Assembly (NCBI RefSeq): GCF_000832985.1
Contig: NZ_CP009920.1
Location: 1,426,001-1,490,000 of the forward strand
Direction: 5' to 3'
Origin: Priestia megaterium NBRC 15308 = ATCC 14581
Lineage (GTDB): Bacteria; Bacillota; Bacilli; Bacillales; Bacillaceae_H
DNA: 64,000 nt
Shown here: piece by piece, positions 10,772-47,038 of the stretch
How positions within the stretch are numbered: the first letter of the stretch is position 1
Layout: each line of letters starts with the position of its first letter
Translations under genes and position numbers: made by a program
The notes under the pieces: generated by a model
Told to the model about the DNA's origin: nothing
Databases searched by the model: none
Seen by the model: only the letters and a program-made list of their open reading frames with translations

Positions 10772-11500
10772 ATGTCTGCATTATTTACCGCACTAGGCTA
10801 TTTCTTTAAAGAATTGGTTTTCCTTGTTTCCTACGTAAAAAACAATGCCTTTCCTCAACCCTTGTCTGCTGCTGAAGAAAAGAGATATTTATCTTTAATG
10901 GAACAAGGAGATCAAGAAGCGCGAAACCTTCTTATCGAACACAATCTCCGGCTCGTTGCGCATATTGTTAAAAAGTTTGAAAACACGGGAGAGGATGCAG
11001 AAGATTTAATTTCAATTGGGACAATCGGTTTAATTAAAGCAATCGAAAGTTATTCGCAGGGAAAAGGAACAAAATTAGCTACTTATGCCGCACGATGTAT
11101 TGAAAATGAAATATTGATGCACTTGCGAGCGCTCAAAAAAACAAAAAAAGATGTGTCTCTGCATGATCCAATTGGCCAGGATAAAGAAGGAAATGAAATC
11201 AGTTTGATTGATGTATTAAAATCAGAATCAGACGATGTAATTGATATGATTCAACTAAATATGGAATTAGAAAAAATAAAAGAATACATCGATATTCTCG
11301 ATGATCGGGAAAAGGAAGTAATTGTTGGTCGCTTCGGTTTGGATCTGCAGGATGAAAAAACCCAGCGAGAAATTGCAAAAGAATTAAATATTTCAAGAAG
11401 TTATGTTTCGCGAATTGAAAAGCGAGCGCTCATGAAAATGTTTCACGAATTTTACAGAGCCGAAAAAGAGAAAAAAAAGAGCGGAAAGAAGGAGAATTAA
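10772..11500 (+). CDS. sigK: RNA polymerase sigma-K factor precursor (intact)
   Basis: The late mother-cell sigma factor, 242 residues, closely matches B. subtilis pro-sigma-K. Regions 2 ([37 protein letters not shown]) and 4 ([21 protein letters not shown]) are complete. The pro-sequence is present, and the SpoIVFB cleavage site falls between Ser20 and Tyr21 (FLVS/YVKNN). The ATG at 10772 follows GGAGGTG; the ATG at 10727 has no Shine-Dalgarno. The gene is one continuous frame, so no skin-type prophage interrupts it. A strong terminator follows at once. Confidence 0.96.
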
Positions 11501-11522
11501 TCCTTCTTTCCGCTCTTTTTTT
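11471..11522. terminator. Strong bidirectional terminator after sigK
   Basis: A roughly 22-bp stem (centre GAGCGGAAAGAAGGA) with an 7-base loop has an A-run on the left and a T-run on the right. It overlaps the sigK stop. It can also end minus-strand transcripts from the yrzI unit. Confidence 0.92.
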
Positions 11523-11562
11523 AAAATAATTTCCAAATGATAATCCGTAGCAAACACATCAT
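11521..11562 (-). CDS. Possible 12-13 residue peptide at the end of the yrzI unit
   Basis: The frame MMCLLRIIIWKLF follows AGGGGGAG by 2 nt (first ATG) or 5 nt (second ATG) and stops just before the terminator. It lies on the same strand as yrzI and the 20-residue ORF. It is too short to classify and may not be translated. Confidence 0.3.
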   Translation of the reverse strand: MMCLLRIIIWKLF

Positions 11563-11581
11563 TACTCCCCCTACTAATCAT

Positions 11582-11644
11582 TTAGGTGGAATCTTTCTCC
11601 ACAAGCAGCCATACAACGATATATCCTTTTTGATTAATCATCAT
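11582..11644 (-). CDS. 20-residue ORF resembling the Rae1 (YacP) target S1025
   Basis: The frame MMINQKGYIVVWLLVEKDST has AAAGGAG at 7-nt spacing from the ATG at 11644. It lies 26 bp downstream of yrzI. In B. subtilis the yrzI operon holds a very short unannotated ORF (S1025) that the ribosome-associated nuclease Rae1 cuts just before a lysine codon. The Glu-Lys pair here (GAG at 11597-11599, AAA at 11594-11596), inside VEKD, is the expected site. The assignment rests on position and motif recalled from the literature; no alignment was done. Confidence 0.6.
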   Translation of the reverse strand: MMINQKGYIVVWLLVEKDST

Positions 11645-11670
11645 TCATCCACTCCTTTCCACTGTTCAAA

Positions 11671-11811
11671 TTAGAAATGACGGTAAAACTCATACTTGCG
11701 GTCTTTTATTTCTTCTTCTAATTGTCTTACATACTGTTCATGCTTAATTTCTGCCTCAGAGTATTGACGAGACTTTATGGTAATAGTTAAAAAGAAAATG
11801 TTCAGTGTCAT
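11671..11811 (-). CDS. yrzI: YrzI family small protein
   Basis: A 46-residue peptide beginning MTLNIFFLTITIKSRQYS, with a short hydrophobic head and a highly charged helical tail (EAEIKHEQYVRQLEEEIKDRK). This fits the Bacillus YrzI small-protein family, whose function is unknown. The ATG at 11811 has AAGGAGG 9 nt upstream. The Shine-Dalgarno begins only about 10 bases after a terminator-like hairpin (11838-11868), so expression may depend on read-through. Other in-frame starts further upstream would run through that hairpin and are unlikely. Confidence 0.82.
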   Translation of the reverse strand: MTLNIFFLTITIKSRQYSEAEIKHEQYVRQLEEEIKDRKYEFYRHF

Positions 11812-11837
11812 TACAATCACCTCCTTATACACAAAAA

Positions 11838-11868
11838 AGCCACAGTAATGCATAAGCATCCTGTGGCT
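11838..11868 (-). terminator. Terminator-like hairpin 2 of the yrzI leader
   Basis: AGCCACAG pairs with CTGTGGCT, and an inner ATGC/GCAT stem makes the hairpin longer. On the minus strand it is followed by TTTTTTG (11832-11838). It ends just before the yrzI Shine-Dalgarno. Its 5' arm matches the 5' arm of hairpin 1. Confidence 0.75.
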
Positions 11869-11882
11869 GAAAAATAATAAAA

Positions 11883-11911
11883 ACCACAGGGCTACTATTC
11901 GCACCTGTGGT
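11883..11911 (-). terminator. Terminator-like hairpin 1 of the yrzI leader
   Basis: ACCACAGG pairs with CCTGTGGT, with a 13-base loop. On the minus strand it is followed by TTTTTATTATTTTT. The 3' arm of this hairpin can pair with the 5' arm of hairpin 2 (CCTGTGG with CCACAGG), which would undo both terminators. Confidence 0.75.
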
Positions 11912-11945
11912 GAATTAACGTGTTTTAATGATCAAAGTAAGAAAG

Positions 11946-12044
11946 TTACTTGATACAGGAACACGGCCGAATAGTATACGTATATAGACGATTTTTGAAC
12001 ATAGTTGAAACTGGATGACCCATAACTGATAAACGTCTTAACAT
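11946..12044 (-). CDS. 32-residue leader ORF upstream of yrzI
   Basis: A short frame begins MLRRLSVMGHPVSTM and ends with TYTIRPCSCIK. AAAAGGAGG stands 9 nt before the ATG, and a sigma-A-like promoter lies about 45 bp further upstream, so it should be transcribed and translated. It is followed within 35 nt by two terminator hairpins and then yrzI. I do not recognise the family. The layout suggests a regulatory leader peptide; a free-standing small protein is the other reading. Confidence 0.55.
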   Translation of the reverse strand: MLRRLSVMGHPVSTMFKNRLYTYTIRPCSCIK

Positions 12045-12088
12045 ATGACTCGACCTCCTTTTAATAAAGTATTTTCCTTACAATGGTA

Positions 12089-12117
12089 ATTATATCCACG
12101 GACTCATAAAAAGTAAA
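12089..12117 (-). promoter_or_regulatory. Promoter of the yrzI leader unit
   Basis: TTTACT (12112-12117) and a perfect TATAAT (12089-12094) are separated by 17 bp on the minus strand. Transcription would start near 12082, about 40 nt before the leader ORF. Confidence 0.6.
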
Positions 12118-43316: not shown

Positions 43317-43334
43317 ATTTTTTATATGTATGCT

Positions 43335-43512
43335 AGTCCCGATCGTGCCGTCTCGAGTGCCTTCGTTTTGAACCCGCTCTCGGCAGGTGGGTGCTCTGCT
43401 TTAACCATTGTAAGTCCTCGAGATGAGGCATGTACGCTCGTTAAAAACTCCGAGCTCCCAAGCAAAAAATTGTTCGGTCAAAACTGGATTAAGGACGAAC
43501 ACATCAGGACTA
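43335..43512 (-). ncRNA. bsrA: 6S RNA (BsrA type)
   Basis: The minus strand contains the recognisable 6S-1 sequence blocks: AGTCCTGATGTGTT at the 5' end, TTTTGACCGAAC, GCGTACATGCCTCATCT, GACTTACAATGGTTAAAGC and CAAAACGAAGGC. The ends pair (AGTCCTGAT with ATCGGGACT, one G-U), as in the closing stem. The place between aspS and tcdA is the same as for B. subtilis bsrA. 6S RNA binds sigma-A RNA polymerase in late growth. The exact 5' and 3' ends are estimated. Confidence 0.93.
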
Positions 43513-43528
43513 TTTAGTTCTTGAAAGT

Positions 43529-46730: not shown

Positions 46731-46985
46731 AAAAACTCTCGCCTCTACTATTTTTCCATAGTAGGGACGAGAGTTAATCTCACGTGGTACCACCCTAATT
46801 GAAACATATGACATGTTTCCACTCATTTCGTTAACGCACGAACACGTTCATCTCCTACTAAGTTTCCCTTTTCAGAGTGAAGCCTCCTGAGTGTTCTTTC
46901 ATAAAGTCATCATGTAGAAATGCTTTCAGCCTAAGACATTTCCTCTCTAGCCATGTGTCATCTTTACTACTTTTCTCGATCTTTG
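46731..46985 (-). promoter_or_regulatory. Histidine-type T-box riboswitch upstream of hisS-aspS
   Basis: The T-box core AGGGTGGTACCACG reads on the minus strand at 46784-46797. The terminator stem (CTCTCGTCCCTACTA and TAGTAGAGGCGAGAG, 46737-46774) is followed by T7. In stem I the sequence GAACACTC puts the specifier CAC (histidine) at 46891-46893. Charging of tRNA-His therefore sets both synthetases. No second aspartate specifier was seen. Confidence 0.93.
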
Positions 46986-47038
46986 GCTTATCAATATAAA
47001 AATGTTATACATTCATTTTAATTTAGCAATTGCTTTCT

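Follow-up and report, generated by a model that had tools for sequence, protein, structure and literature searches.

A putative ribosome-sensing transcription attenuator upstream of the yrzI small-peptide operon in Priestia megaterium and related Bacilli

Organization of the yrzI locus

The yrzI unit of Priestia megaterium lies on the minus strand of the window, the whole stretch of 64,000 nucleotides that was analysed, and its parts, all on that strand, were computed from the sequence. It is headed by a sigma-A-type promoter, TTTACT-17-TATAAT (12089..12117), identified by sequence scan and by its presence at the same place in homologous loci. Transcription is estimated to start at ~12082, 7 nt beyond the -10 box. 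Promoter-like sites are no more frequent than expected in that 1.3 kb region (4 seen versus 4.6 expected), so that the scan alone is no proof; of the 98 homologous loci, however, 95 have a promoter of the form TTTACA...TATAAT 5' of the leader, versus 0.8 in shuffles. The inverted repeat TTACnnnnGTAA directly follows the -10 box (12089-12078). A looser form of this repeat, counted without a shuffle control, occurs in 67/98 loci, and it may be an operator or a hairpin at the RNA 5' end.

The promoter is followed by a leader open reading frame (ORF) of 32 codons, MLRRLSVMGHPVSTMFKNRLYTYTIRPCSCIK (11946..12044, from the ORF list), whose Shine-Dalgarno (SD) sequence AAGGAGG occupies 12060-12054. 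Downstream come two terminators in tandem. Terminator 1 (T1, 11870..11911) consists of a hairpin (11911-11883, -16.5 kcal/mol) and a U-rich tract, and terminator 2 (T2, 11833..11868) of a hairpin (11868-11838, -18.9 kcal/mol) and a U tract. The gene yrzI (11671..11811, 46 codons; PF09501, E 5e-22) has its own SD AAGGAGG at 11826-11820 and precedes two micro-ORFs, MMINQKGYIVVWLLVEKDST of 20 codons (11582..11644) and MMCLLRIIIWKLF of 13 codons (11521..11562). The operon ends at a terminator (11474..11520) common to a convergent sigma-factor gene, which we take to be sigK, and a YrhC-like gene (PF14143) is located upstream of the leader unit. Every part of the layout given in the original prediction is thus present, from the promoter and the 32-codon leader through the two terminators to YrzI and its micro-ORFs. 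Elsewhere the window carries a T-box leader (46760-46992) and a 6S RNA (43332-43513).

The leader ORF and its SD:anti-SD helix

Homologous loci were taken from a start set of yrzI loci (L001-L156) by removal of 8 duplicate fetches, 16 loci failing the YrzI pattern and 19 with identical upstream sequence, which left 113 distinct loci. An SD-led leader ORF ending 100-300 nt 5' of the first yrzI copy was found in 98 of them. The other 15 gave no leader by this rule, some perhaps through mistaking a tandem copy for the first yrzI. Tandem yrzI copies, two or three, are present in many loci (L029, L031, L091, L135, L137, L140, L143 and others).

The leader peptides share little sequence. Most leaders carry instead a nucleotide element, ATTCGACC or a variant of it, with the conserved form ATTCG(A/G)CC; in the window it reads ATTCGGCC (11965..11972). 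Across species all three reading frames of the element are used, giving I-R-P, Y/H/N-S-T or F-D, with frame counts of 53, 20 and 16 for TTC-type elements having at least 6/7 pairs. It is therefore the nucleotides that are kept and not the peptide, and conservation of the leader peptide was dropped as an explanation for this reason.

The element is complementary to GGTCGAA, an extension of the leader SD. In the window its partner is 12055-12048, within the SD region AAAAGGAGGTCGAGT (12048..12062) that is the proposed sensing arm of an SD:anti-SD helix. Counting Watson-Crick and G-U pairs, the match is 7/7 in 83 of the 98 loci, 6/7 in 11 and 5/7 in 4, while 200 shuffles gave 7/7 matches in a mean of 8.4 loci and a maximum of 17. 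Among ordinary SD-led start sites of the window only 1 of 24 has a full 7/7 partner. The helix occurs in several versions: GGTCGAA/TTCGACC in 37 loci, GGCTGAA/TTCAGCC in 7 loci of the B. subtilis group, GGGAAGG/CCTTCCC in 2 loci (L023 and L149, the latter from Anoxybacillus flavithermus), GGTTGAA/TTCAACC in one (L030) and GGTTGAT/TTCAACC, with 6/7 pairs, in B. licheniformis-like loci. Pairing in the helix reaches 98.5% within the seed alignment A2, yet no pair is changed on both sides; its covariation is seen between groups and not inside A2. For the window leader RNA the predicted fold is more stable than that of any of 200 shuffles (z -5.74).

The leader sequence TCCTGT, which the original prediction saw as a possible partner of T2, is not the key element: in the predicted fold its TCCT is bound to the AGGA of the SD, and the related locus L006 has TCCTAC at this position. 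A second conserved feature is a frame-independent motif with a consensus near CAACTTCAT, whose log-likelihood is 61.3 compared to 22.4-29.9 in 4 shuffles (12 starts for the shuffles, 25 for the real set). It is found in 35 yrzI leaders, mostly 6-20 nt 5' of the anti-SD element; the window copy, CAACTATGT (11999..12007), lies 27 nt from it. The motif was also seen by eye in bmrB-type and ABC-2 leaders, and it may be a polymerase pause or a further pairing partner. No Rfam family scores above its gathering threshold over the leader, and RF02968 matches T1 at chance level (16.3 bits versus 36.8 for gathering).

Tandem terminators and alternative pairings

At least two terminators are predicted between leader and yrzI in 91/98 loci versus 4/98 dinucleotide-shuffled ones (one shuffle each). 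A simple scan restricted to loops of 3-8 nt listed neither T1 nor T2 of the window. The original prediction rightly noticed that the two hairpins share arms: the T1 3' arm CCTGTGG is complementary to the T2 5' arm CCACAGG (-14.8 kcal/mol). This pairing was said to cancel both terminators, which it would not do by itself, since the T1 5' arm could then pair with the T2 3' arm beside the T2 U tract (-10.4 kcal/mol). The T1 5' side must also be held, and a leader segment that overlaps the anti-SD element, TACTATTCG (11968..11976), can do so on paper, being able to form 9 bp with CGAATAGTA in the T1 apical loop (11901-11893).

The longest exact match between leader and intergenic region is, taken alone, mostly noise outside IRP-type leaders, and for this reason wobble pairs, bulges and swap tests were used instead. 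The computed complementarity is on average stronger within a locus than between loci. The leader fits the T1 loop of its own locus at -6.44 kcal/mol versus -4.97 after swapping (p 1e-4; 38 representatives of 97 loci, kinship ignored). The pairing is predicted in many lineages and is poor or not seen in the B. subtilis and B. licheniformis groups by the same own-versus-swapped comparison. In A2, 85.3% of cells pair in this leader:loop helix and its covariation score is above all 500 shuffles; 196 of the 500 match its count of pairs changed on both sides and its pair-type count, and its outer two pairs are broken in 10 and 11 of the 25 sequences. The T1 3' arm likewise fits the T2 5' arm of its own locus (-12.42 versus -10.17 kcal/mol, 0/20000 permutations; 40 representatives of 91, kinship ignored), as does the T1 5' arm its own T2 3' arm (-12.75 versus -10.46). 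Lineage-wide likeness of the stems may explain part of this own-locus fit.

Staged folding of the leader RNA

The window RNA was folded at successive stages of its synthesis with the leader free, with the anti-SD element covered or with the SD and first codons covered. The unblocked RNA forms the SD:anti-SD helix with a probability of 1.0 and T1 forms, as it does when the anti-SD element is covered. With the SD and first codons covered, the leader:loop helix has a probability of 1.0 as long as the T1 3' arm has yet to be transcribed. For RNA extended to 11860 the probability of T1 is 0.92 in the free state, 0.97 with the element covered and 0.07 with the SD covered; in this last state leader:loop and T1':T2 pairings each reach 0.93. 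When T1 is just complete (11883) it wins in all states, with a probability of 1.0 even if the SD is covered, and when T2 is complete (11838) both terminators stand at 1.0 even under SD coverage. Finished terminators win at equilibrium, so antitermination must be kinetic.

Among 87 loci, SD coverage lowers the T1 probability by at least 0.3 relative to each of the other two states in 50, taking for each locus the most favourable of four stopping points, and none has the opposite effect at that point; among representatives the folding switch is found in 14/33. Mutually exclusive structures dependent on ribosome position are thus predicted clearly for the window and partially across loci.

The yrzI micro-ORFs and Rae1

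The window micro-ORF at 11582..11644 ends in VEKDST, and micro-ORFs ending in MEKDQV or VEKDST are found at the same place in relatives. Its B. subtilis group counterpart reads MLRMELLMHYTMEKDQV, a peptide of 17 residues, and the window micro-ORF is likely the counterpart of S1025 of B. subtilis. Rae1 reportedly cuts S1025 between Glu13 and Lys14, a position that fits the 17-residue peptide. By analogy with B. subtilis, Rae1 would likely cut the window micro-ORF at its Glu-Lys codons (11599-11594). A loose EK-type micro-ORF pattern is present in 70/98 loci, and short ORFs like the one at 11521..11562 are found in some relatives. Rae1 (YacP, PF05991) is encoded in the genome of the window (E 1.1e-60), so that both features of a Rae1-target operon, a Glu-Lys micro-ORF beside yrzI and a gene for Rae1, are present. 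In B. subtilis S1024, S1025, S1026, yrzI, bmrC and bmrD make up six of seven Rae1 candidates, and yrzI, S1024, S1025 and S1026 are reported to be up in the absence of Rae1 (PMC10632193).

Spread of the leader and genes behind it

Of 397 genomes sampled from the order, 193 contain PF09501. A covariance model spanning SD to T1 (R1), built from the 25 seeds of A2 with the window among them, matches 201 of these 397 genomes at E <=0.01. The genome of the window has one R1 match, at this locus only (E 1.7e-15, by construction since it is a seed). In a class-wide draw R1 matches 10 of 121 genomes at E 0.001, 5 of these outside the order. The congeners G002 and G004 have neither YrzI nor an R1 match; Rae1 is nevertheless present in G004.

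From 18 chosen genomes 28 R1 matches were made into loci, of which at least 24 were looked at. Among the loci listed the leaders precede YrzI-like ORFs and also other genes, some of them transporter-like or transferase-like. An ABC-2-type ATPase (PF00005) is located behind the L175 and L178 leaders, with a PF06182 permease in L175, and L179, L180 and L182 share the ABC-2-type ATPase motif. The product behind the L183 leader is BmrC (YheI chain 7m33, E 8.2e-194), the one behind L184 is 62% identical to it, and L171 has BmrC by eye. An APH-fold protein is encoded behind L174 and a GNAT protein behind L177. MFS transporters follow the L200 and L203 leaders, which hold AAACGACCT against the SD AGGTCGTTT, and an MFS protein follows the L176 leader, whose layout is poor by eye. 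None of the proteins tried reaches an NCBIfam cut-off with its best match, one permease had no match and two proteins are cut by the end of the locus; no resistance is therefore claimed. L181, a weak R1 match (E 0.0039), was rejected for lack of a leader-like layout. L138 has no terminators by the rule used.

In 15 non-yrzI leaders (9 bmrC-type, 4 ABC-2, 1 APH and 1 GNAT), with leaders and start sites picked by eye, the SD fits its own leader at -17.29 versus -12.69 kcal/mol when swapped (0/50000 permutations, kinship ignored). Left out of this set were the near-duplicates L178, L184, L190 and L183, and also L176, L181 and L200-L207; the bmrC-type loci come mostly from protein search and not from R1. 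These loci share the yrzI-type SD:anti-SD design, as in AGGGTTTGCT/GGCAAACCCT of L189. The nearest BmrC-like proteins in the genome of the window (L194) and in a congener (L195), at 46% identity, have no such leader that could be seen. Directly 5' of bmrC in L185-L193 a micro-ORF ending in EGG or ESG was seen by eye. It is probably the counterpart of a B. subtilis cryptic ORF that is said, from the title of Deves 2023, to be cut by Rae1.

Published data on yrzI

The yrzI region of B. subtilis is already known: it serves as a reporter of protein-synthesis inhibition, is a target of Rae1 and harbours an RNA bound by Hfq. A description of the yrzI leader as an attenuator was not found in the open-licence PMC papers searched, in agreement with the statement made at the outset that none was known. 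In the table of a review, yrzI-luciferase is given as a marker for protein-synthesis inhibition and credited to Hutter 2004 (PMC7604286). In B. subtilis a 234-nt RNA, ncr2184/ncr60, which maps between yrzI and yrhG, is recovered with Hfq, its strand not being given in the table (PMC3574147), and in B. amyloliquefaciens FZB42 a short yrzI-yrhG transcript is noted as coding for a small protein (PMC4634765). B. licheniformis yrzI is reported to have a 5' UTR of 301 nt (PMC3871023); our estimate for the relatives L116-L118 is 286-289 nt.

Several reports from mutants mention yrzI. It is up together with bmrBCD in a whiA mutant (PMC10714963) and together with bmrCD upon RNase P/Z depletion, where the paper speaks of yrzI mRNA stability and not of read-through (PMC10100781). 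A yhfW mutant likewise has raised yrzI (PMC7317962), and the genes up in a sigW mutant include yrzI and S1026 (PMC3498285). The published facts on yrzI and bmrB fit a ribosome-sensing attenuator in part.

A model for control of the yrzI operon

The computed layout, pairings and folds make it probable that the yrzI leader is a ribosome-sensing transcription attenuator placed before a small-peptide operon, with the SD of the leader as the sensing arm. The original prediction of ribosome-controlled attenuation stands as to its kind and its conserved layout (leaders in 98/113 loci, terminators in 91/98); the key pairing differs, being SD:anti-SD. The course of events that we infer for the cell is the following. 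With no ribosome on the leader, the SD would pair with the anti-SD element and T1 (or T2) would form. A ribosome moving over the leader would cover the element for a time and T1 would form as well. A ribosome held at or just past the start codon, by a drug, a shortage of charged tRNA or a queue, would mask the SD and free the element. The freed element could then pair with the T1 loop side, upon which the T1 3' arm would pair with the T2 5' arm, both terminators would be bypassed and RNA polymerase would continue into yrzI and the micro-ORFs. The finished mRNA would probably be cut by Rae1 in the EK-containing micro-ORF.

Other readings of the same features have to be weighed. The SD:anti-SD helix could mainly limit leader translation while the T1-ended leader RNA acts in trans as a small RNA, for instance bound to Hfq, and yrzI is expressed by leaky read-through. 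The Hfq-co-purified RNA of B. subtilis agrees with this in size, as the estimated T1-ended RNA measures 222-224 nt in four near relatives (L105, L106, L107, L109) and 233 nt in two (L104, L120); cross-complementary double terminators and a leader stretch fitting the T1 loop would however be unneeded, and the use of yrzI to report protein-synthesis inhibition suggests regulation of the unit downstream, which makes this role improbable. It is also unlikely that control operates mainly through Rae1 and mRNA stability, with stalled ribosomes protecting the mRNA or altering its cutting and the leader terminators being constitutive: the rise of yrzI and its neighbours without Rae1, the stability wording of the RNase P/Z-depletion paper and the frequency of EK-type micro-ORFs favour such control, but the covarying SD:anti-SD and leader:loop pairings upstream would be left unexplained.

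Arg-rich stretches and the IRP motif of several leaders recall peptide-specific arrest leaders, in which a particular peptide motif causes stalling, as it does in erm leaders. Conserved codons in three frames (IRP, YST/HST/NST, FD) show that nucleotides are kept, however, and the first leader codons vary by eye; arrest of this kind is very unlikely here.

Returning to the attenuator with the SD as sensing arm, a broader proposal is possible and is put forward tentatively: that these leaders are a broad class of codon-independent sensors of ribosome state in Bacilli, in which the leader SD senses and a ribosome held at or near the start frees the anti-SD element as antiterminator. This class would drive the YrzI operon in about half of the sampled genomes of the order and bmrCD, ABC-2, MFS, APH-fold or GNAT genes elsewhere; in the yrzI and bmrCD operons Rae1 would serve to switch it off. 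If so, YrzI and the micro-peptides would belong to a response to ribosome stress, a role to which the family named 'probable sporulation protein' in Pfam would then be linked. A yrzI attenuator of the kind described would account for the use of yrzI as a reporter of protein-synthesis inhibitors and for the joint change of two Rae1-target operons in B. subtilis, and it would be a sensor working without a dedicated stalling peptide or codon. The covariance model offers a means to find such leaders before other genes.

Comparison with known attenuators

In the trp-type attenuator of E. coli alternating helices are read by ribosome position and amino-acid codons do the sensing. Helices alternate in the yrzI leader too, which would sense by its SD and has two terminators. 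The uORF of toiL-topAI of E. coli is described as sensing several classes of ribosome drugs, as proposed here, and differs in that termination is Rho-dependent and the ribosome-binding site of the target gene is sequestered (PMC12121999). The tlrB (yxjB) leader of B. subtilis has a leader peptide, a terminator and a drug-stalled ribosome, with timing by polymerase pausing; for B. pumilus a weak hairpin is predicted to contain the leader SD. It has an RXR motif for tylosin stalling and a sequestered target-gene SD, and the report identifies no antiterminator (PMC6851288).

The bmrB leader of bmrBCD in B. subtilis likewise combines a leader ORF, an intrinsic terminator and a downstream Rae1 target; it is induced by chloramphenicol, erythromycin and lincomycin, leader translation being needed for induction by lincomycin, and unlike the yrzI leader it controls an ABC exporter (PMC4191407). 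The bmrB paper sets its structures at nt 60-162 of bmrB, and its main text mentions RBSs, with neither 'Shine-Dalgarno' nor 'ribosome binding site' (PMC4191407). An SD paired with a downstream leader element is a bmrB-type feature found here, in 83/98 yrzI leaders and 15 non-yrzI leaders, and not part of the published definition. The published bmrB is a 53-codon GTG ORF (PMC4191407), while the SD-led ORF used here in L189 and L190 is in another frame; in L189 a 52-codon GTG ORF and the SD-led 23-codon ATG ORF are in different frames. The reported bmrB leader mutant has more termination and no lincomycin induction, and bases of its 5' UTR were altered as well (PMC4191407). This would suit an SD:anti-SD anti-antiterminator only if the helix is kept in the mutant; if the 5'-UTR changes broke it, the scheme predicts more read-through, and the lower read-through seen gives no clean support. 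The points on ORF frame and mutant lowered our confidence in the attenuator reading slightly.

The Rae1-controlled operon of B. subtilis, with yrzI and an S1025-like micro-ORF, is the same operon as the one treated here; the Rae1 reports concern mRNA decay and do not describe its leader as an attenuator in what they say of it (PMC10632193, PMC11780869). The vmlR and cplR leaders resemble the yrzI leader in having a uORF, an antiterminator/terminator logic and induction by ribosome drugs, and differ by their 3-codon uORFs and ABCF target genes. In vmlR an anti-antiterminator is named as such, as is proposed for the yrzI leader, and in cplR a 5' hairpin sequesters the uORF; the SD of the vmlR uORF is described as single-stranded, while the yrzI leader SD would itself be the anti-antiterminator arm (PMC9226507, PMC10201436). 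By the features accessible to computation, the yrzI leader classifies as a predicted ribosome-mediated transcription attenuator of the bmrB/vmlR kind, with anti-antiterminator, antiterminator and terminator. Novel relative to these systems are its position before yrzI, the proposed sensing role of its own SD, an element kept regardless of frame, the pair of terminators and a wide distribution.
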